Source of the DNA: Actinomycetota bacterium
Lineage (GTDB): Bacteria; Actinomycetota; Actinomycetes; Actinomycetales; Microbacteriaceae
DNA length: 43,530 nucleotides
Assembly: GCA_005777405.1 (NCBI GenBank)
Contig: SXMH01000166.1
Location: 1 to 43,530, forward strand
Direction of reading: 5' to 3'
The notes beneath the pieces were generated by a model. The model did not search any database, had not been told where the DNA came from, and saw nothing but the letters and a program-made list of their open reading frames with translations. Shown here piece after piece: positions 32,360 to 43,508 of this stretch; position 1 is the first letter of the stretch, and the number at the start of each line of letters is the position of its first letter. The position numbers were made by a program, and so were the translations under genes.

Positions 32360-33016
32360 TCAGGCGCGCTTGAACCCGGCGGCAATAGCGCTCGTGACGG
32401 TGGCGACATCGAGAGAAGGCTCCACACTCCGCCCAATCCACGTCGCAAGCTTCTTCGGCCACACCACGCGCACGCCATTAACCTCGAACGCGTCGGGAAA
32501 GAAGCCCCAGTCGGCATCGACGAAACACAGCACGCCGAAGACTGGCACGTCACCAACCACGCGCCGCACGTGCTCGACCTGATTCAGAACCCCGTCAACG
32601 AGGGCAGTCTTATCGCGCCCCTTCACCGTCAGCAGCTCAACCCGCGGCCGAATGATGCCACCCTCTACGCGCTTCTGCGGGGCAGGACCCACGTAGCGCT
32701 TCGTGTCGATCACCCAGACCCCACCCGGCGTCACAACGATGTGGTCGATGTTGGCTTTCGAGCGAGGAATGCGCCGGTCATGCAAGACCCGGATGCTCTC
32801 CGACGCCAACCCGTCGAGCCGAGCCCCCACAGCTGCCTCACCGGCAGCTCCGCTGCTCCACGCTCTTGTGCTCTGCTTCTCGTCCGACAGCGCAACGGCG
32901 ATGCCGCCGAGCTTGCCCCACTTCGCGCGCAGCTTTGCTTCGTCGTTGGCTTTGCGACGTTCGTACTCGCGCTGCGCGGAGGTGCCAGCGGCGCTGTAGT
33001 GATCGTCCATCCTCAC
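32360..33016 (-). CDS. NERD (nuclease-related) domain protein
   Basis: NIDHIVVTPGGVWVIDTKRYVG (D...DxK nuclease-like core). Confidence 0.85.
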   Translation of the reverse strand: MRMDDHYSAAGTSAQREYERRKANDEAKLRAKWGKLGGIAVALSDEKQSTRAWSSGAAGEAAVGARLDGLASESIRVLHDRRIPRSKANIDHIVVTPGGVWVIDTKRYVGPAPQKRVEGGIIRPRVELLTVKGRDKTALVDGVLNQVEHVRRVVGDVPVFGVLCFVDADWGFFPDAFEVNGVRVVWPKKLATWIGRSVEPSLDVATVTSAIAAGFKRA

Positions 33017-34419
33017 CCCTCCGAGGCAGTGGTTGGCACCGGTGCTGAACTGGCCTTGAACTCCATCGCCTCCGGTTCAACGACGAACTCCAGCACTTCG
33101 ACGGACTCCTCCTTGAGCGCCTCCAACACCGCGTCGGGCGTAACCCTGAAATACTCGCGCCGAAGGTTCACCTTGTTGATGCGGTGCTCATCAAACCTCT
33201 GGTGCAGTTTCGCCTCGATACCGACAGCGTCGTCGGCGAAGAACAGCGCGTGCACGTCGAAGCGGAAGGGCACGGAGGCATCGCCCAGTTCGTTGACTCG
33301 ATCCATCGGCTCGAGTCGCCGAGTCATGCCGATCTTCACGACATCGCCACCGAACGAGCCGACGTTCGAAATGACGTACACGTACCCGGCACGGATGTTC
33401 GCCGCTCGGTAGTCGACATCATCGATGGCCTTGTCCACATCTGCCAGTCGCTCGCGCACGCGTTCGGCTCCTTCGAGATCACCCTTCGCTTCTAGAGCGG
33501 CCAGCGTGGCGAGATAGTGAGACTTCTCTTTCTCGAGCTTCTCCTTCTGACGCTGGAGTTCCTGCTCCGCTTTGCGCTGCTCTCGAAGTTCTTCGCGGTG
33601 CGCCCGCTCGAGTTCTTTCTCTCGCTGCAACGCTTGAAGGTGCTGGGCCGCCAGAGCCAGCTCCTTCATCCGCAACTGGTGGAAATGGGGCGTGATGCGC
33701 AAGTCGATCATCGTTCCCTGTCGAGCGATCTGATCGATGACAGTGTTCAAGCGCTTGGTGGCCGTTGCCAAGTTGCCGGCCTTGACCGTCTTGACGCAAT
33801 TCTCCGCCTCGGCGTTGTACGCACGCAGCAAGAGGTTCGACATGTCGGAGACAAACTTGCGACCCTTGGCGGCGGAACCATTGAAGGTGAAGTTCGACGT
33901 GGCTTGGGTCGCGCGCTTCGAACGGATCGTCTCCTTGATCTGAGAACGAAGGGCCTCTAGCTCTGCGCTCAGCATCGTCGACGACTCCGCCGGGTGCTCA
34001 TAGTCGAAGAGGCCGTACGACTGCAGTTCAACGACGGCCCGCGCGCTCAAGACTTCACTCTGCACTGAGCTCAGCTCGCGCGATGCTTCGTTGATCTTGC
34101 CGCGCGCGACAGAGATCTCCGCGTTCGCCGACTCGATCTGCTGACGCAATTCGTCTTTGACGCGATCGAGCTCTGCGACCTCGGCGAGCCCATGCTTGTC
34201 GATGAGCGACTGCAATCGTTCGTTCTCGGCTGCATACGCGAGAGCTGCCTTCTTCCCGCCAAAGAAAGAGATCTTTGGCGATGCAGAAACCTCCCGCGAT
34301 GCAGTGGTCGGCGTCGCGGCGGGCTGTTGATCAGCGAAGTGCTCGGTCCACTTCTCGCCATCCCACCAGCGCTGCCGTCCAGAACCGTCGTCGTACCAAC
34401 CCGCCGCTGCGTTTGCCAT
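33013..34419 (-). CDS. DUF2510 - coiled-coil (DUF4041-like) - GIY-YIG (T5orf172/MUG113) protein
   Basis: AAGWYDDGSGRQRWWDGEKWTEHF N-term; long charged coiled-coil; C-term AGYVYVISNVGSFGGDVVKIGMTRRLEPMDRVNELGDASVPFRFDVHALFFADDA; ATG at 34419. Confidence 0.85.
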   Translation of the reverse strand: MANAAAGWYDDGSGRQRWWDGEKWTEHFADQQPAATPTTASREVSASPKISFFGGKKAALAYAAENERLQSLIDKHGLAEVAELDRVKDELRQQIESANAEISVARGKINEASRELSSVQSEVLSARAVVELQSYGLFDYEHPAESSTMLSAELEALRSQIKETIRSKRATQATSNFTFNGSAAKGRKFVSDMSNLLLRAYNAEAENCVKTVKAGNLATATKRLNTVIDQIARQGTMIDLRITPHFHQLRMKELALAAQHLQALQREKELERAHREELREQRKAEQELQRQKEKLEKEKSHYLATLAALEAKGDLEGAERVRERLADVDKAIDDVDYRAANIRAGYVYVISNVGSFGGDVVKIGMTRRLEPMDRVNELGDASVPFRFDVHALFFADDAVGIEAKLHQRFDEHRINKVNLRREYFRVTPDAVLEALKEESVEVLEFVVEPEAMEFKASSAPVPTTASEG

Positions 34420-34510
34420 GCGCTGACGGTACTGAAAACTGAGCGTGTCTCTACAGTCCCCATCCGGGTCACACGAGCCCTCGTCACCTCTCACCGCTAC
34501 GCTGACCACC

Positions 34511-34828
34511 ATGACCGACGCCGCCCGCGACGCCCTCCGCGCGTTCGTGGCCGAGCGCGACTGGGCACAATTCCACTCCCCCGAGAACCTCGCCAAGAGC
34601 ATCTCGATCGAGGCGGCCGAGCTGCTCGAACTCTTCCAGTGGAACGCCAACGTTGACGCGCAACGCTTGCGCGACGAACTCGCCGACGTGCTCACCTACT
34701 GCATCCTGCTCGCTGACCGCATCGGCGCCGACCCGCAGCAGCTCGTCCTCGACAAGCTCGAGCAGACGCGCGCCAAGTACCCGGCAGACAAGGCGCGAGG
34801 GCGCAGCGAGAAGTATGACCATCTCTGA
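34511..34828 (+). CDS. MazG-like nucleotide pyrophosphohydrolase
   Basis: SIEAAELLELFQW (EExxE-like) and LRDELADVLTYCILLADRIGAD. Confidence 0.93.
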   Translation: MTDAARDALRAFVAERDWAQFHSPENLAKSISIEAAELLELFQWNANVDAQRLRDELADVLTYCILLADRIGADPQQLVLDKLEQTRAKYPADKARGRSEKYDHL

Positions 34829-36587
34829 GATTCACCGCATCGCCTTCGATAAGGTGGCGGTGCGCGAGTGGGCCAAGACCGACCCGCGTCACCGCAACTG
34901 GCCAGTCGTGTACCTCATCGACTCCGGGCGCACCGGGCAACGCCCTGGACTCAGCGACGTGTACGTCGGGGAGACGCTCAACGCTGAAGCGCGCATCCTG
35001 CAGCACCTCGACAACCCCGACAAGCGGCAGATTCTGGAACAGTTTCGCGTCGTGCTCGACGACCGCTACAACAAGTCAGCGTGCCTCGACCTCGAGTCGC
35101 ACCTCATCCGTTTGCTCGCCGGCGACGGCACGTACCGCGTGCTAAACCGCAATGACGGCATCACCGACTCCAACTACTACGAGCGCGATGTGTACCGCGA
35201 GTCGTTTCAGCAGGTGTTCGACCAGCTGCTCGACGAAGGCATCTTCACACGAAGCATCCCCGAGATCGAGAACAGCGACCTCTTCAAACTCTCCCCCTAC
35301 AAGGCGCTCACCACTGACCAGGCAGTCGCGGTCGAGAACATCGTCGAAGGGCTCTTTGACGGGCTCGAGCGCGACACGGGTGAGCTGCTCATCGTGCAAG
35401 GCGAACCCGGCACAGGCAAAACGGTTGTCGCGATCTACCTCATGAAGCTGCTCGCCGACATCCAGGCTTCACGCCCCGACGACGAGCCCGACGCCGACTC
35501 GATCTTCTCCGACTTCTTCACCGACGAGCACCGGCAGCAGCTCACCGACTTTCGGGTCGGGCTCGTCGTTCCGCAGCAGTCGCTGCGCAAGAGCATCCAG
35601 CGCGTCTTCAAGCGCACTCCCGGCCTCAGTGCCGACCAAGTGCTGACGCCCTTCGACGTCGGCGCGAGCGACACCCACTGGGACCTGCTCATCGTCGACG
35701 AAGCCCACCGGCTCAACCAGCGCGCCAACCAACCGTCGGGCGTGCAGAACCGCAAGTTCATCGACATCACCACCGCACTGTTCGGGACCGACGACATCAC
35801 CAAGACCCAACTCGACTGGATTCGCGCCCGTAGCCGCCACCAATTGCTCATGGTCGACCCCGAACAGAGCGTGCGCCCCGCCGACCTGCCGCCCGAACTG
35901 CTGCGCACCCTCGTTGACGAGGCGAAAGGCGATGGGCGCCACTACCCGCTCGTCTCGCAACTGCGCGTCAAAGCCGGCGACGATTACATCGCGTGGGTGC
36001 GCGGCATTTTCCGCCCCGGGCTACCCGACGTGGATGCTCCGCCTCCCGCACCCCGCACCTTCGAGGGCTACGACCTGCGGTTCTTCGACGACCTCGGCGA
36101 GATGCACGACGCCATCCGCGAGCGCGACGCCGAGCATGGGCTCGCGCGCCTCGTCGCCGGCTACGCGTGGGAGTGGAAGAGCAAAAATGACCCCACCGCC
36201 TACGACATCGAGCTCGACGGCCGCCAACTGCGCTGGAACACCACCGCCACCGACTGGATCGCCTCGAAGACCTCGCTCGACGAGGTCGGCTCGATACACA
36301 CCGTGCAGGGCTACGACCTCAACTACGCCGGCGTCATTATCGGCAACGACCTGCAGTGGGATGAAGATGCTCAGCGCCTGGTCGTCGACCGCGACAGCTA
36401 CTTTGACAAGAAAGGCAAAGAGAACAACCCGACGCTCGGCAAGACGTACAGTGATGAAGATCTGCTGAGGTACGTCTGCAATGTGTATGCGGTGCTGATG
36501 ACTCGCGGGATTCTCGGGACATACGTGCACGTGCGCGACGACTTGCTGCGCACCAGACTCAACGTATGGCTTAGCGCACATCCTTGA
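34815..36587 (+). CDS. GIY-YIG nuclease-like domain fused to DUF2075 superfamily helicase/ATPase
   Basis: N-term VVYLIDSG...DVYVGETLNAEARILQH; Walker A VQGEPGTGKTVVAIYL; LIVDEAHRL; HTVQGYDLNYAGVIIG; ATG at 34815 overlaps MazG stop by 14 bp. Confidence 0.9.
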   Translation: MTISEIHRIAFDKVAVREWAKTDPRHRNWPVVYLIDSGRTGQRPGLSDVYVGETLNAEARILQHLDNPDKRQILEQFRVVLDDRYNKSACLDLESHLIRLLAGDGTYRVLNRNDGITDSNYYERDVYRESFQQVFDQLLDEGIFTRSIPEIENSDLFKLSPYKALTTDQAVAVENIVEGLFDGLERDTGELLIVQGEPGTGKTVVAIYLMKLLADIQASRPDDEPDADSIFSDFFTDEHRQQLTDFRVGLVVPQQSLRKSIQRVFKRTPGLSADQVLTPFDVGASDTHWDLLIVDEAHRLNQRANQPSGVQNRKFIDITTALFGTDDITKTQLDWIRARSRHQLLMVDPEQSVRPADLPPELLRTLVDEAKGDGRHYPLVSQLRVKAGDDYIAWVRGIFRPGLPDVDAPPPAPRTFEGYDLRFFDDLGEMHDAIRERDAEHGLARLVAGYAWEWKSKNDPTAYDIELDGRQLRWNTTATDWIASKTSLDEVGSIHTVQGYDLNYAGVIIGNDLQWDEDAQRLVVDRDSYFDKKGKENNPTLGKTYSDEDLLRYVCNVYAVLMTRGILGTYVHVRDDLLRTRLNVWLSAHP

Positions 36588-36760: not shown

Positions 36761-39700
36761 TCACTGTCCATCGTCGGCTGCCAGGGAGACGTACAGGATC
36801 GACGGTTGCTCTGCGTCCACCCGTAAATCAATACTGATTCCCGTCTCTAGGATCGCTTGAGTATCCGAATGGTCACCAGTGTTCACCAGGGCAACAAGCT
36901 CCGTGTCGCAGTAGAGCCCCAGGGACGCGGGAGGCGGCTCGCCGTCTACGGGTCGCAGTGTGAGATCTCCCGAACTGAAAGCCCACGTCGATAGACCAGT
37001 AATCGAGATGCCGATTGAACCTTCTTCCAGTAGCGCACGCAACAAGCTTCGCTGCCGGGTCCGAGTGAAATCAACGAGGTCGAGTAACTCCGACGTTGTC
37101 GCACCAAAAGTGGCCCTCCACTCCGCAATGGTCAATCCTGCGAGCCAAGCCCTGGTGTCTTCCACAGACTGGAAATCATCTGGCGCCTCAGCGACAACGA
37201 CCTTCGCAAGTCGCCTGGATCGGAAACCAGACATCATCAGCTTCAGAGATCGAGAGTCGTCAACTCCATAACGGATCAGCCCGCCTAGCTCTGGGCAGAA
37301 GAACTCTTGCGAGCCTTGCGACTCTAAATGCCAGTTCACGAGATCCACTAGGGCGCCTACGGTCCAAGACAAGTAGTGCTCGAATTGCTGAGCGACCGCG
37401 GTCACCATTTGCTCGATTCGCCAACCGGGGTCTGCAACATCGGCCAAGTACGACGAAGCTAGATCTGGAAGCGAGGAGCCAGCCATCCAATCTCGCAAGA
37501 GCGAGCCCGGATCAACCGATATTTGGTCACCACGCACCGTAGTCCGGAAAAACCAAGCAGGGGCCTCTGGAAGCGCAAGCAGGCTGGCCAACTCCGGGCC
37601 GAGCAAGGTAAGCGCGTCCATGGGCGCGGAACCGTCAAACGAAGGGTCAGCCAAAACCTGATCCGCCAACGACTCTGCTATCGCGTCGAGTGAGCGAGCT
37701 GATGAAATGGAAGTCCCTGTCCGCGGCCACCTCTGTCTCGCAGATCTCTCAGTCGAGGAATAGGAATCCTTGGTTGCAGAAGCTATCGAGAGGTAGATTC
37801 GCCGCGCTTCCGCGGACTGCGACGCCATCAACGTCGAGCCCACTATCTCACCAACATCTATCGACGAGACCAGCGAGCCTTGCTTCTCCTCGGCGGCAAG
37901 CATCTGCCAGACGAAGCTTACGAAGCTAGCTGCGGAGCCAGCGGCACTGAAGATGGCATCGTGGCCGTTCCGTAGGGACGATTCGAGCGCCGCTGCGCTT
38001 TCCAAGGCGGAGTCAGTCGTCAGCGACGAAGTTATTGCCAGGTCGTCTGGGAGGGGATTCAAGTCGGCAAAGTCTTGTTCACTAGGCTCGGCCGCTCGAA
38101 CTAGAACTATCCAGCCCTCGGTCTCTCGTCCAGCCCGGCCAGCTCGCCCCATTGCATTGACCAGTCGAGCACCGCGAAGACGGCTGTCTTCGGGCTGTCC
38201 TGGATAGCTTTGGTCATAGAGCACGACTGTCCGCACTGGAAGATTGACGCCGTCGGTCAGAGTAGATGTACAAGCCAGGAAAGGAAGTTGATCCGCCTTC
38301 ACCGCATCTTCGAGAGCTTCGAGTACCTCTGTCGGTAGGCCCGCGTGATGATAGCCAACACCGCATCGAAGTGCCCGAACTAGCGGATGGTCCGACCCCA
38401 ATTGTTGACGAACGAAGTCAACGAGAGTCGTCAGTTCGCCACTCTCCTCCCCCGACATTGCGAGTGCTTTAGCTAGTGATTCCGCTTGAGATCGCGTGGA
38501 AGCCACGATGAGGACTGAGCCGGCGTGCCCCAGTGCCCGGACCATGTCAGCTGCAATTTGGTATTGCTTTGTAGATCGCGTGGAGTCTCTCGTGTATCCA
38601 TCAGTCCCGGGCGGATCCACCTTGGACTTCCTTACTAGGCGCCAGCCAGTGTCGCCGCGCGTCGACAGTGAAACAGTCTGGCCGTCTGCCGTTCGTACGC
38701 GAATCAAACCAGCCAAGTTAGTCGTGTGTCGGTAACGCCATGTGTGCCCCGCGCCACCCTCGACGGTAGTTGAGCCCCAATCGGCTCTCGTGTTGAACAC
38801 TGCGTGCAGACGGCGTGGGCCGCGCCAGTCTGACTCGTGAAGAAGCCCACTTCCTAGTGGGCTCAACCATTGAGCGATTGAACCGGCGTTTCCCATGGCG
38901 GCCGAGATTAAGGCGATTCGATGGTCAGTTCCACGTGTAAGCAGATCGAGTGCTGCGATTACTGACTCGAGAACAAACCCCCTGCCATGCTCCTTCAGGA
39001 GTTGCGCTTCGTCGAAAATGAACATTCCGAACTTGTCGACGACTGCCTCGGCATCGTGGCGAAGAAGATGGCCGAGGCGTTCAGGGGTCATGACCTCGAC
39101 ATCGGCCGGCACCGTATCCCAAGTCAGCGGAACTCCAATGTTCCAGAAGGACGAGAAATCGAGGGACTCTGCCGCGGTCTCTTTTTGCAGGAGCCGGACT
39201 CTCTGCGACATCGCTCGGCGCACTTCTCTGCCCAGGCCACGCGTCGGGACGACATAGCAGATGCTTCGATCCGTCCGGGCCAAAAATTCAACTGCCAGAA
39301 GTTGCGCGACCAGTGATTTCCCTCCGCTTGTCGGCACAGCGAGAACCATCCGCCTAACCTCCGGATCAAGAGGTGACTGTGATCCCGTCAGCAAACCCTT
39401 CTGGGGTTCCCAAAGAGTCACAACTGCAGGGCTTCCTGCGGTGAACGATTGGCGAACTATCGCGGGAACGGAAGGCGGCAGTATGTCCGGATTCCAGAGC
39501 GACCCATCGAATGCCTCCTCGGCGAACTCAAGAAGGTGCGCTGCCACCCATTTCGCATTGAGGTCCTCCGGCCCCGCTTGATCCCTTACGACAGAGAGCA
39601 GTCTTGCCCGACTGCGCTCGCGACGTTCGGAGTTGCCGCGTACCAATGCGACGAACATGTCCTCGGCCCCCAGCGTGAGCATGTGGGTGGGGCCAAAGGC

Positions 39701-40252
39701 GGTTGTCGTGAGATCGGGCAATTCGGAATCAGTGGCCAGCTTTGCCAGTTGTCGCCGCCAACCAGCGAGCCACCTGAACAGCGACCTGGACTCAAGTCCC
39801 AGAAAGGCTAGCCCGACTTCTAGGCTCATTGTCGCGAGGTGGTCCGCGAGCGGCGCTTCCTCACGGATCTCTTCGCGGAGTCGGTTCATGATCGCGGTTG
39901 CGTTGGGCTCACGTCCTCCCCTTCGATAGCCGATTGCCGCTGCAAAACCAAATGAAAGACGCTCCTCTCTGCTCAAGCTCGGCTCGAGGAGCGCCAGATC
40001 GAACACGTGCGCACTTACTAGAAAGGCTTGGCGCCGCCGTCCAGCGGGATACAAATCGCGGGCTTGGTCTACGGAAGCGATCCCGTGTAGGTACCAGGCC
40101 GTGTCCAGAAGAGAGGTGTCGATTTCGTTGCTTCGCAGTATCAGGCCTACTTCGGCTTTTGCCAAAGCCTCTTGGAGCTCTTCAGGACTCGGAAGTCCCG
40201 ATCTTCCGCCGAGGGCACCCCTCAGCAGTGCGAGGTCTAGAGCCCGCTCCAC
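36761..40252 (-). CDS. Ski2-like superfamily 2 helicase (HamB-like candidate)
   Basis: 1163 aa; LAVPTSGGKSLVAQLL, FIFDEAQLL, LISAAMG, CGVGYHHAGLP, TSTLTDGVNLPVRTVVLYD, NAMGRAGRAGRETEGWIVLV; GTG start with GGAG RBS overlapping upstream gene by 16 bp. Confidence 0.9.
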   Translation of the reverse strand: MERALDLALLRGALGGRSGLPSPEELQEALAKAEVGLILRSNEIDTSLLDTAWYLHGIASVDQARDLYPAGRRRQAFLVSAHVFDLALLEPSLSREERLSFGFAAAIGYRRGGREPNATAIMNRLREEIREEAPLADHLATMSLEVGLAFLGLESRSLFRWLAGWRRQLAKLATDSELPDLTTTAFGPTHMLTLGAEDMFVALVRGNSERRERSRARLLSVVRDQAGPEDLNAKWVAAHLLEFAEEAFDGSLWNPDILPPSVPAIVRQSFTAGSPAVVTLWEPQKGLLTGSQSPLDPEVRRMVLAVPTSGGKSLVAQLLAVEFLARTDRSICYVVPTRGLGREVRRAMSQRVRLLQKETAAESLDFSSFWNIGVPLTWDTVPADVEVMTPERLGHLLRHDAEAVVDKFGMFIFDEAQLLKEHGRGFVLESVIAALDLLTRGTDHRIALISAAMGNAGSIAQWLSPLGSGLLHESDWRGPRRLHAVFNTRADWGSTTVEGGAGHTWRYRHTTNLAGLIRVRTADGQTVSLSTRGDTGWRLVRKSKVDPPGTDGYTRDSTRSTKQYQIAADMVRALGHAGSVLIVASTRSQAESLAKALAMSGEESGELTTLVDFVRQQLGSDHPLVRALRCGVGYHHAGLPTEVLEALEDAVKADQLPFLACTSTLTDGVNLPVRTVVLYDQSYPGQPEDSRLRGARLVNAMGRAGRAGRETEGWIVLVRAAEPSEQDFADLNPLPDDLAITSSLTTDSALESAAALESSLRNGHDAIFSAAGSAASFVSFVWQMLAAEEKQGSLVSSIDVGEIVGSTLMASQSAEARRIYLSIASATKDSYSSTERSARQRWPRTGTSISSARSLDAIAESLADQVLADPSFDGSAPMDALTLLGPELASLLALPEAPAWFFRTTVRGDQISVDPGSLLRDWMAGSSLPDLASSYLADVADPGWRIEQMVTAVAQQFEHYLSWTVGALVDLVNWHLESQGSQEFFCPELGGLIRYGVDDSRSLKLMMSGFRSRRLAKVVVAEAPDDFQSVEDTRAWLAGLTIAEWRATFGATTSELLDLVDFTRTRQRSLLRALLEEGSIGISITGLSTWAFSSGDLTLRPVDGEPPPASLGLYCDTELVALVNTGDHSDTQAILETGISIDLRVDAEQPSILYVSLAADDGQ

Positions 40253-41082
40253 ACAATCTCCTTAACCCGATCGGAGAATCCTGCATAGTCAGGCATAGCA
40301 ATGACGAGCGCTTCGGTTTGCGTCGATTGGCTGAATTCGGGAAACGCAGTGCGGATAGACCGGAAAGTCCGCGGGCCGCTTGGCGCGTGGACTTCTGAGG
40401 TCCCGACTGCCACCCCCACGCCCGCGCGGTCGCTTCGATCAAACCAAAGGTCGACCATGCTGCCGTACAGTTCAGCTAAGTCGTCTTCCTCCACCATGGA
40501 CTCCGGGGCTGCAAGCTTTGCCAAGTACTCGTGGCCGCGCTGAGCGAGTTGCTTGCTGGCTCGGTTGATCGTGCCAGAGACTCTGCCAGTCGCATCATGC
40601 TTCTTGATCTCCCAAAGCCTGAAGACCAAGACTCCCTGATGGTCCGTGTAGATCACCAGACCATCACCACCGGGCTCCAACGGATCCGCCTTCACGCGGT
40701 GCACGCGCCTCAACTGACGGCCATCGGCCGTAGGCGATCGCTCGCCCAGCAAGAGGTTCCAGATGATTTCCGCGACGTGCCCTTGGAGGTGATCAGCGTT
40801 CGGCGGATTCTCCGGGCTCCCAAATCCGATGCTTGCGTAGGTTTTGACGGTGGCTAGAGCTGTTCCGACTTCTGCAGGCCCACCATCGCGCCTCCGACGC
40901 CACCGTTCCAGGACTGGAGACACGCCACACGCAACACTCATTGCGAAGTCAGCGACCAGTTGCGCAGCGAACTCTCGGTCTTGCGCACTCAACGAGAGGC
41001 CGCCGACGATGTAGGCCACAGGCGATCCGGCTGCAACGTCTGAGAGGCCCAGCAGCGGTGTCAAGCTAGGCGGAACGGGCAT
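40237..41082 (-). CDS. PD-(D/E)XK-type nuclease candidate (HamA/DUF1837-like)
   Basis: 281 aa; LQGHVAEIIWNLLLGE ... KADPLEPGGDGLVIYTDHQGVLVFRLWEIKKHDA (E...D...ExK); ATG 41082 preceded by CAGGAGGT. Confidence 0.65.
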   Translation of the reverse strand: MPVPPSLTPLLGLSDVAAGSPVAYIVGGLSLSAQDREFAAQLVADFAMSVACGVSPVLERWRRRRDGGPAEVGTALATVKTYASIGFGSPENPPNADHLQGHVAEIIWNLLLGERSPTADGRQLRRVHRVKADPLEPGGDGLVIYTDHQGVLVFRLWEIKKHDATGRVSGTINRASKQLAQRGHEYLAKLAAPESMVEEDDLAELYGSMVDLWFDRSDRAGVGVAVGTSEVHAPSGPRTFRSIRTAFPEFSQSTQTEALVIAMPDYAGFSDRVKEIVWSGL

Positions 41083-41344
41083 CGTCCTTGCACCTCCTGA
41101 TCGACACTCATTATTGCCGACGATGGACCCCCTCTTGCTCGTTCTCTGCGCAAAATGCGCGAGCCTGGGTGCGCGGTGCAAGAATGAGCCCTCCTGAGCC
41201 ACGAGACGGGAGTACTGGAGAGCTCTGCTACTGCAGCCTGAACACTCTCGCGATGTCTAGCACGCGGATCGCGGCGATCTGCGTTGCCGTCACTGGTGAG
41301 CGAAGCAAAGTTGCTTGCTCAATGTTCAACCGGCCAAGCCGACG

Positions 41345-42445
41345 CTAAGCCGCCAGCAGTCTTTCCAAGATGTCCGCTAGGTCCGCGGGAGACCTAGGCA
41401 AATGGGTATTCATCGCCTTGTCGAGGCCCGCAGTCACGACGGCATTTCGTACCGAAGCGTCTGTAAAGACGATGTCGCAATATGGAACTGCCAACGCCAG
41501 AGCAGCGATGTCGTGAAGGTCGTTGTCTGTCCACAATCGATTGGCGTCACGGTGATACTGCACCTTGAGCCCAACAAACACCGCGCTAGCTGGCATTGAG
41601 AGCGGAAGCTCCAGGAACTGGTCCGTGTGTTCCGCAATGTCCGAAAGGGTCATTCCACGAGTCATCAGCTCGAGATTGAGCATGTCAATCAACTCGAGAC
41701 TCAGGTGTCTTGCTGCCAATACGTCGAGCAAGCGACCCTTGCGCCAGTGTCTGCTCAGCAGGTGGTCCGCAAAGTACTGCTCAATCAGCACATTGTTGTG
41801 GTGACTCTCGCGCGATCGTTCAGGTTGGAAGCCGTTGGCGCGAAGCGTCGAAATCTCCGAATCTCGAGGGCCAGCGAGGAGTTCCTTCTCCGCCCTTCTT
41901 TCAAGTTTCGAAAGCCAGTCGGGGTCCCCACGGTGCGGCTCTTCACGTGCTCGATCCGTAACGTCGTTCCCGGTATCCTGATCAATCACTCGGAGCCCAC
42001 CCTTCTTGCCGAACCCGTGCAACATCGACTTACCGACCAGGTCGAAAGAGCCCCAACCAAGCCCTCTGCCACCAATCTTCTCGTCTAGAAGTGCCTGCAA
42101 TTCCAGACGGAACACCTCAGGCAAACCAGCCAGGTACTCGAAGTCTGTGAGTTCATCGATCAACTCCACTACGTCATCCCGCTGGCGCGGATTCCTGATC
42201 GCCGAAAACTCCTCTACAAAAGATGTGGTCAGGACGATCCGAACTGATCGAACACCGCGCGCTGCGCGGAGAGCAGCGAGTAACTGGTCGTAAGCGGCGG
42301 AACCTCGCCCAAGGGACGCTTTCGTGAGGTTAATCCAGTGGTTAAGGTCCAAGTACAAGAGAGGCGGAGGGCGGGAAGGTAGGCGTATCCCCGGCGGCCA
42401 GATCAGTCCGATGCCGCGGCCCACCGAGGTGCGGTCGTCTGCCAT
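41345..42445 (-). CDS. PIN-like nuclease domain protein
   Basis: 366 aa; LLYLDLNHWINLTK ... TTSFVEEFSAI ... WTDNDLHDIAALALAVPYCDIVFTDASVRNAV, PIN acidic tetrad pattern. Confidence 0.75.
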   Translation of the reverse strand: MADDRTSVGRGIGLIWPPGIRLPSRPPPLLYLDLNHWINLTKASLGRGSAAYDQLLAALRAARGVRSVRIVLTTSFVEEFSAIRNPRQRDDVVELIDELTDFEYLAGLPEVFRLELQALLDEKIGGRGLGWGSFDLVGKSMLHGFGKKGGLRVIDQDTGNDVTDRAREEPHRGDPDWLSKLERRAEKELLAGPRDSEISTLRANGFQPERSRESHHNNVLIEQYFADHLLSRHWRKGRLLDVLAARHLSLELIDMLNLELMTRGMTLSDIAEHTDQFLELPLSMPASAVFVGLKVQYHRDANRLWTDNDLHDIAALALAVPYCDIVFTDASVRNAVVTAGLDKAMNTHLPRSPADLADILERLLAA

Positions 42446-42674: not shown

Positions 42675-42989
42675 CTAGGAGCGTGCGAGCCGTCGCTGGA
42701 GGAAGCGGCGCTCGGGGTCGGAGGGGGCTGACTCGAGGGCTCGACGGTAGTGGGGCAGAGCATCCGCGCGGCGGCCGGCGCGGCGGAGCAGGTCGGCGCG
42801 GGTGGCGTGCAGGAGTTGGTACTCCCCCGGCTGCGCGTCGAGGTCGAGGGTGTCGAGGAGGGCGAGGCCAGCATTCGGGCCGTCGTGCAAGGCCACGGCG
42901 ATCGCTCGGTTGAGGTCGACGATCGGCGACGGGGCCACCTGGCTGAGGTGGGGGTCAAGGGTGGCGATGCGGGCGAAGTTCGTCGCCAC
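42675..42989 (-). pseudogene. C-terminal remnant of ECF sigma factor (ECF42/SigJ-type TPR-like tail)
   Basis: SPIVDLNRAIAVALHDGPNAGLALLDTLD...YQLLHATRADLLRRAGRRADALPHYRRALESAPSDPERRFLQRRLA; sigma2/sigma4 regions absent. Confidence 0.7.
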
Positions 42990-43177: not shown

Positions 43178-43462
43178 CGAATCCTCCTGATCAAATCGTA
43201 ATGCCGATGATCGTCGAAGGGCGAGAACACGTTTTCTTCAGGGGTGAAGGCGAAGGTCGATTCGCCCATTTCCGACTCGTGGGTCACGAGCAAAAGGCCG
43301 GTTCGGCAGCTCTCTCGTGACCCGCGCGGTGCGCCTCGCCGGATGCTGCCTGGCAGGCTTGATTTGTCCCCACCGGCTCCCCCACACGTTGCTACGCAAC
43401 GCGCGGGGCCCCTCGCGCGGCGTGGGCCCACCTGCTCGCAGGTGCAACCTTGGTTGGCCCGC

Positions 43463-43507
43463 AAAACGCAGAAACCCTCCCGCTTTGCGGGAGGGTTTCT
43501 GCGTTTT
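43463..43507. terminator. Strong bidirectional terminator hairpin (perfect 21-bp stem, TTT loop)
   Basis: AAAACGCAGAAACCCTCCCGC-TTT-GCGGGAGGGTTTCTGCGTTTT. Confidence 0.9.
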
Positions 43508-43508
43508 G

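Follow-up and report, generated by a model that had tools for sequence, protein, structure and literature searches.

Two overlapping genes on the minus strand of an actinomycetotal contig, here called A and B, probably constitute a divergent two-gene Hachiman-type anti-phage system belonging to a distinct clade. Hachiman consists of HamA (PF08878/DUF1837) and HamB (Tuck et al. 2024, PMC12278908). The genes lie in a window of 43,530 nucleotides, the whole stretch of DNA that was analysed, whose list of open reading frames contains three consecutive minus-strand frames at 42445-41345 (366 aa), 41082-40237 (281 aa) and 40252-36761 (1163 aa). The initial annotation had read these three frames as possibly a divergent Hachiman with an added RNase/toxin effector (the PIN protein), or a new system; family profiles and motif spacing favour the divergent Hachiman, and the PIN effector is abandoned. 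The features of the locus are:

40237..41082, minus strand: gene A, predicted HamA-like PD-(D/E)XK nuclease of 281 aa (open reading frame, profile match, motif spacing)
40663-40665 (D140), 40609-40611 (E158) and 40603-40605 (K160), minus strand: predicted active site of A (invariant residues)
G101-x-x-A-E105 of A, minus strand: helix motif
36761..40252, minus strand: gene B, HamB-like Ski2 helicase of 1163 aa with a GTG start (Pfam, PADLOC, profiles, tree)
about 39314-39334, minus strand: motif I of B, PTSGGKS
about 39002-39013, minus strand: DEAQ motif of B
about 38135-38149, minus strand: GRAGR motif of B
39383..40252, minus strand: the first 290 or so residues of B, alpha-helical and by profile comparison a putative counterpart of the HamB NAH domain
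40237..40252, minus strand: A/B overlap of 16 nt, in which A closes with ..VWSGL stop and B opens with VERAL..
40258..40263, minus strand: AAGGAG 5 nt before the GTG, within the final stretch of the A coding sequence and probably the ribosome-binding site of B
41345..42445, minus strand: PIN-like protein of 366 aa, a neighbour judged to lie outside the system

The three frames and the 16-bp overlap between A and B were found where the initial annotation had placed them. The Ski2-type motifs it had assigned to B are all present, alongside scores for PF00270 (E 6e-16) and Helicase_C (PF00271), and A precedes the adjacent helicase in the HamA-HamB gene order that had been pointed out. Gene A starts with ATG and has AGGAGG upstream. 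The PIN-like gene, A and B have a G+C content of about 58-60%, lower than the value of about 67% that prevails in the rest of the window.

Judged from its sequence, A is a relative of HamA lying beneath the normal level of detection. No Pfam, NCBIfam or PADLOC model matches A, and eight of its relatives return nothing meaningful from Pfam and PADLOC; PF08878 and the PADLOC HamA models detect neither A nor any of the eight. In a control, PF08878 detects five of six proteins at the HamA position of canonical loci. When the family profile of A (16 rows) is compared by hhalign with that of HamA (15 rows, types 1 and 2 together), the score is 33.9 with P 5.7e-4. None of 249 column shuffles comes higher than 20.9, and reversal of the profile lowers the score to 15.0; control profiles from unrelated families score 12-14. 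The alignment extends over about 180 columns and is in register at G101/E105, K131, G138/D140, E158-x-K160 and the C-terminal helix. The match to 12 type-1 HamA rows alone is borderline (P 0.048, reached by 2 of 200 shuffles), so the link between A and HamA rests on the combined type-1 and type-2 profile together with the motif. Shallow first profiles gave P 0.014-0.016, with significance attained only after the addition of HamA sequences, and A compared as a single sequence with one HamA protein at a time matches only weakly.

The motif GxxGE-(28-33)-GxD-(15-21)-ExK is found in all 16 A proteins and in 13 of 15 HamA proteins, and the two families share the spacing GxxGE-31-GxD-17-ExK. The loci fetched contain 1548 open frames, in which the pattern has 38 matches, all A- or HamA-type by eye; 4644 shuffled frames have none. 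The pattern was devised after viewing both families, which weakens this test yet does not void it. The core E...GGDG...WEIKK, pointed out earlier in A, is present, and its residues are invariant in relatives down to 26% identity, which indicates that the core is not due to chance. The earlier reading of A as a HamA-like nuclease is thereby upheld by the sensitive family profile and the motif spacing. AlphaFold models of A alone and of A with four relatives are of very low confidence (mean pLDDT 36 and 40), and a Foldseek search of the PDB from these models yielded no significant match; a profile search of the PDB with A yielded chance matches only. Two unusual arrangements were observed among other loci. 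In Rhizobium phaseoli (L072, 1793-2701) the protein at the HamA position before a HamB-like helicase is apparently undetected by PF08878 and is possibly another divergent HamA, and in a Nostoc plasmid (L063, 1686-5915) HamA and HamB are fused in one 1409-aa frame.

Profile evidence identifies B as a HamB-type helicase with a putative counterpart of the HamA-binding NAH domain. The best PADLOC model for B is PDC-M23B (E 5e-59, residues 230-1051), followed by many HamB models at E 2e-53 and weaker, and all ten B proteins tested match both HamB models and PDC-M23B. In the PADLOC check that had been proposed, B is recognized by HamB models and A by no HamA model. Residues 23-1140 of B align to a HamB profile, two PDC-M23B-like rows included, with P 2.4e-86. 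In Hachiman the NAH domain is the part of HamB to which HamA binds, and other Ski2 helicases lack it (PMC12278908). The N-terminal region of B matches canonical HamB N-termini with P 1.4e-7 when the PDC-M23B rows are left out, and with P 3.4e-10 (0 of 150 shuffles) when they are included; shallow first profiles gave no match for this region, which became significant only once more HamB sequences were added. In the helicase-core tree, several deep branches of which are long and unresolved, B forms a single clade (99/99) apart from HamB1, HamB2, PDC-M23B and other Ski2 helicases. The PDB match of B to 8zue (AbpB) is confined to a part of the helicase core.

The pair thus resembles Hachiman in having two genes with the nuclease before the helicase, in the E / GxD / ExK core of A at the same spacing as in HamA, and in the HamB-type helical domain predicted at the same N-terminal position of B, where it might bind A. 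It differs in that A escapes the HamA models and B occupies its own clade. AbpAB of E. coli, described as a variant of Hachiman that responds to DNA damage and to phage SSB (PMC10732053, PMC12278908), likewise combines a nuclease with a Ski2-type helicase, but AbpA bears a separate Cap4-like nuclease at its N-terminus, and AbpB has 729 aa. A closer comparison is offered by PDC-M23, a PADLOC candidate system. Its helicase model is the best PADLOC match of B, and a PDC-M23 locus (L054) has a protein of about 270 aa with an ExK motif before the helicase. This likeness, the failure of HamA models to match A and the weakness of the single-sequence comparisons would all suit a separate nuclease-helicase system, in which a different PD-(D/E)XK enzyme is paired with a Hachiman-related helicase and works like Hachiman without descent of A from HamA. 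We consider such an origin unlikely: the A-HamA alignment remains in register beyond the nuclease core, into the C-terminal helix, at a score no shuffle equals, and A has the HamA-specific motif spacing. Furthermore, the PDC-M23A model PDLC04529 matches neither A nor anything in six A-bearing genomes, though it does find G179, and B joins no PDC-M23B row in the tree.

The junction of A and B is peculiar in its constancy. Of the pairs from actinobacteria and a Deinococcus, 17 have an intact junction, and each of these shows an overlap of exactly 16 nt, whereas the spacing in the canonical Hachiman pairs sampled varies between a gap and a 17-nt overlap. The 16 nt read as WSGL-stop in the frame of A and as VERAL in the frame of B, whose start codon is GTG in 15 of the 17 pairs, ATG in one and TTG in one. 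Purine-rich stretches resembling AAGGAG occur near the A ends of most relatives. Such constancy, together with the placement of a ribosome-binding site within A, would fit translational coupling of the two genes, by which the nuclease may be made alongside its guard.

A and B are a unit of two genes, not three. Relatives of A occur in Salinibacterium, Rhodococcus, Mycobacterium, Streptomyces, Deinococcus and further genomes, and the A/B pair recurs among actinobacteria and in Deinococcus. The plasmid collection has 16 records that contain A, and full-length B (coverage of 80% or more) is found in these 16 and in no other. Only A and B recur among the open frames within 6 kb at 15 A/B loci, and no recurrent third gene appears there; the simple gene caller used for this count missed A in three loci known to have it. 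The distribution is patchy: A is present in 2 of 250 genomes of the window's family, and A/B in 3 of 397 genomes of the phylum. Viral contigs searched with A1, A5, P0001 and a Streptomyces B contained no member of the A/B family, the search with A5 returning two distant helicase loci. In several Streptomyces-group genomes (L090, L093, L094) copies of A and/or B are broken by frame breaks or a missing B, as would be expected of a patchy, costly system unless these are assembly errors.

The pair is located in a variable hotspot of the window (28.9-42.7 kb). The flanks compared, at 28.9 kb and at about 42.7-43.0 kb, are separated by about 14 kb here and by only about 0.6-0.7 kb in three congeneric genomes (G531, G895, G896). 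Besides A and B, the interval contains genes for PD-Lambda-1 defence, a NERD protein and a Schlafen-type helicase. The first of these (33013-34500, minus strand) encodes DUF4041 and T5orf172 domains, matches PADLOC PD-Lambda-1 strongly (E 1e-105) and overlaps the downstream NERD-domain gene (32360-33016) by 4 nt. At 34445-36587 on the plus strand, convergent with A and B, a MazG-like gene is followed by an overlapping gene for a 590-aa protein with a possible, sub-threshold GIY-YIG N-terminus and a Schlafen-group-3 helicase domain (E 3e-64). A 104-aa frame at 42675-42989 (minus strand) resembles, by eye, what is left of the C-terminal part of an ECF-type sigma factor and has matches of 76-91% DNA identity elsewhere in the genus. 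A perfect 22-bp inverted repeat at 43462-43508, terminator- or repeat-like, lies at the window end, and related sequences recur in the genus.

Ski2-type helicases such as Hel308 function in repair, and many members of the A/B family are plasmid-borne; both points would agree with a role of A and B in DNA repair or plasmid maintenance instead of defence. The rarity of the pair across family and phylum, the broken copies in several Streptomyces, the defence-type neighbours and the position in a variable island all speak against such a role, making it quite improbable.

The 366-aa protein encoded upstream had been taken for a PIN nuclease and proposed as a third component of the system. Its identity as a PIN protein is plausible: no Pfam, NCBIfam or PDB entry matches it, and a weak collinear profile match to PF01850 proteins falls in two pieces separated by an insert of about 220 aa, the N-terminal piece with P 0.008 (0 of 150 shuffles) and the C-terminal piece with P 0.07. 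Residues D33, E79 and D312 are invariant in its seven relatives. Its role as a third component is not supported. The proposed check on co-occurrence, run as a reciprocal neighbourhood search, never found the two together elsewhere: relatives of the PIN-like protein, present in 6 of 200 genomes of the window's family, are absent from all 19 other A/B loci, and neither A nor B is present at any of the 7 loci carrying these relatives. With this search negative and no third gene recurring around A/B, the third-gene idea was rejected, and the PIN-like gene is very probably an unrelated neighbour.

Third genes are known to join Hachiman: HamMAB, a Hachiman of the protease-HamA kind, has a nuclease as its third gene (PMC12799240), which shows that the system can acquire a third effector gene. 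Its HamA, however, is catalytically dead and fused to the protease, in contrast to A, which keeps D-ExK and is unfused, and the neighbour found here is PIN-like and not conserved. Despite the HamM precedent, the shared strand and lower G+C content and the position directly upstream, a three-gene Hachiman variant with the PIN-like protein as added RNase or toxin effector is highly improbable in view of the 262-bp gap before A and the negative counts in both directions.

The mode of action proposed for the two-gene Hachiman-type system is modelled on that of Hachiman (PMC12278908). As an SF2 helicase of the Ski2 type, B would patrol DNA and keep A inactive through its N-terminal helical domain. 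Once B engaged DNA that is damaged or stems from phage replication and has free single-stranded ends, its ATP-driven movement would release or activate A, a presumed metal-dependent PD-(D/E)XK DNase, which would then destroy phage and host DNA and stop the phage at the cell's expense. The sequences document the pairing of the genes, their motifs, the kinship of both proteins with HamA and HamB, the clade of B and the constant overlap; nuclease activity, DNA sensing, abortive infection and coupling are features we infer. In a bolder form, which we regard as doubtful, the pair would be a third major Hachiman lineage with its own trigger, and the 16-nt junction would force stoichiometric coupled synthesis as a safety catch.

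Public plasmid records annotate A merely as a hypothetical protein. As none of the Pfam, PADLOC and NCBIfam models tested recognizes the nuclease either, A/B loci are probably not called as Hachiman; the clade is unnamed by the standard models tested, but may already be covered by newer or unpublished ones. Its members would widen the known sequence range of HamA and supply divergent representatives for comparisons of structure and trigger. The conserved overlapping junction would offer a test of how bacteria pair a self-destructive nuclease with its inhibitor.
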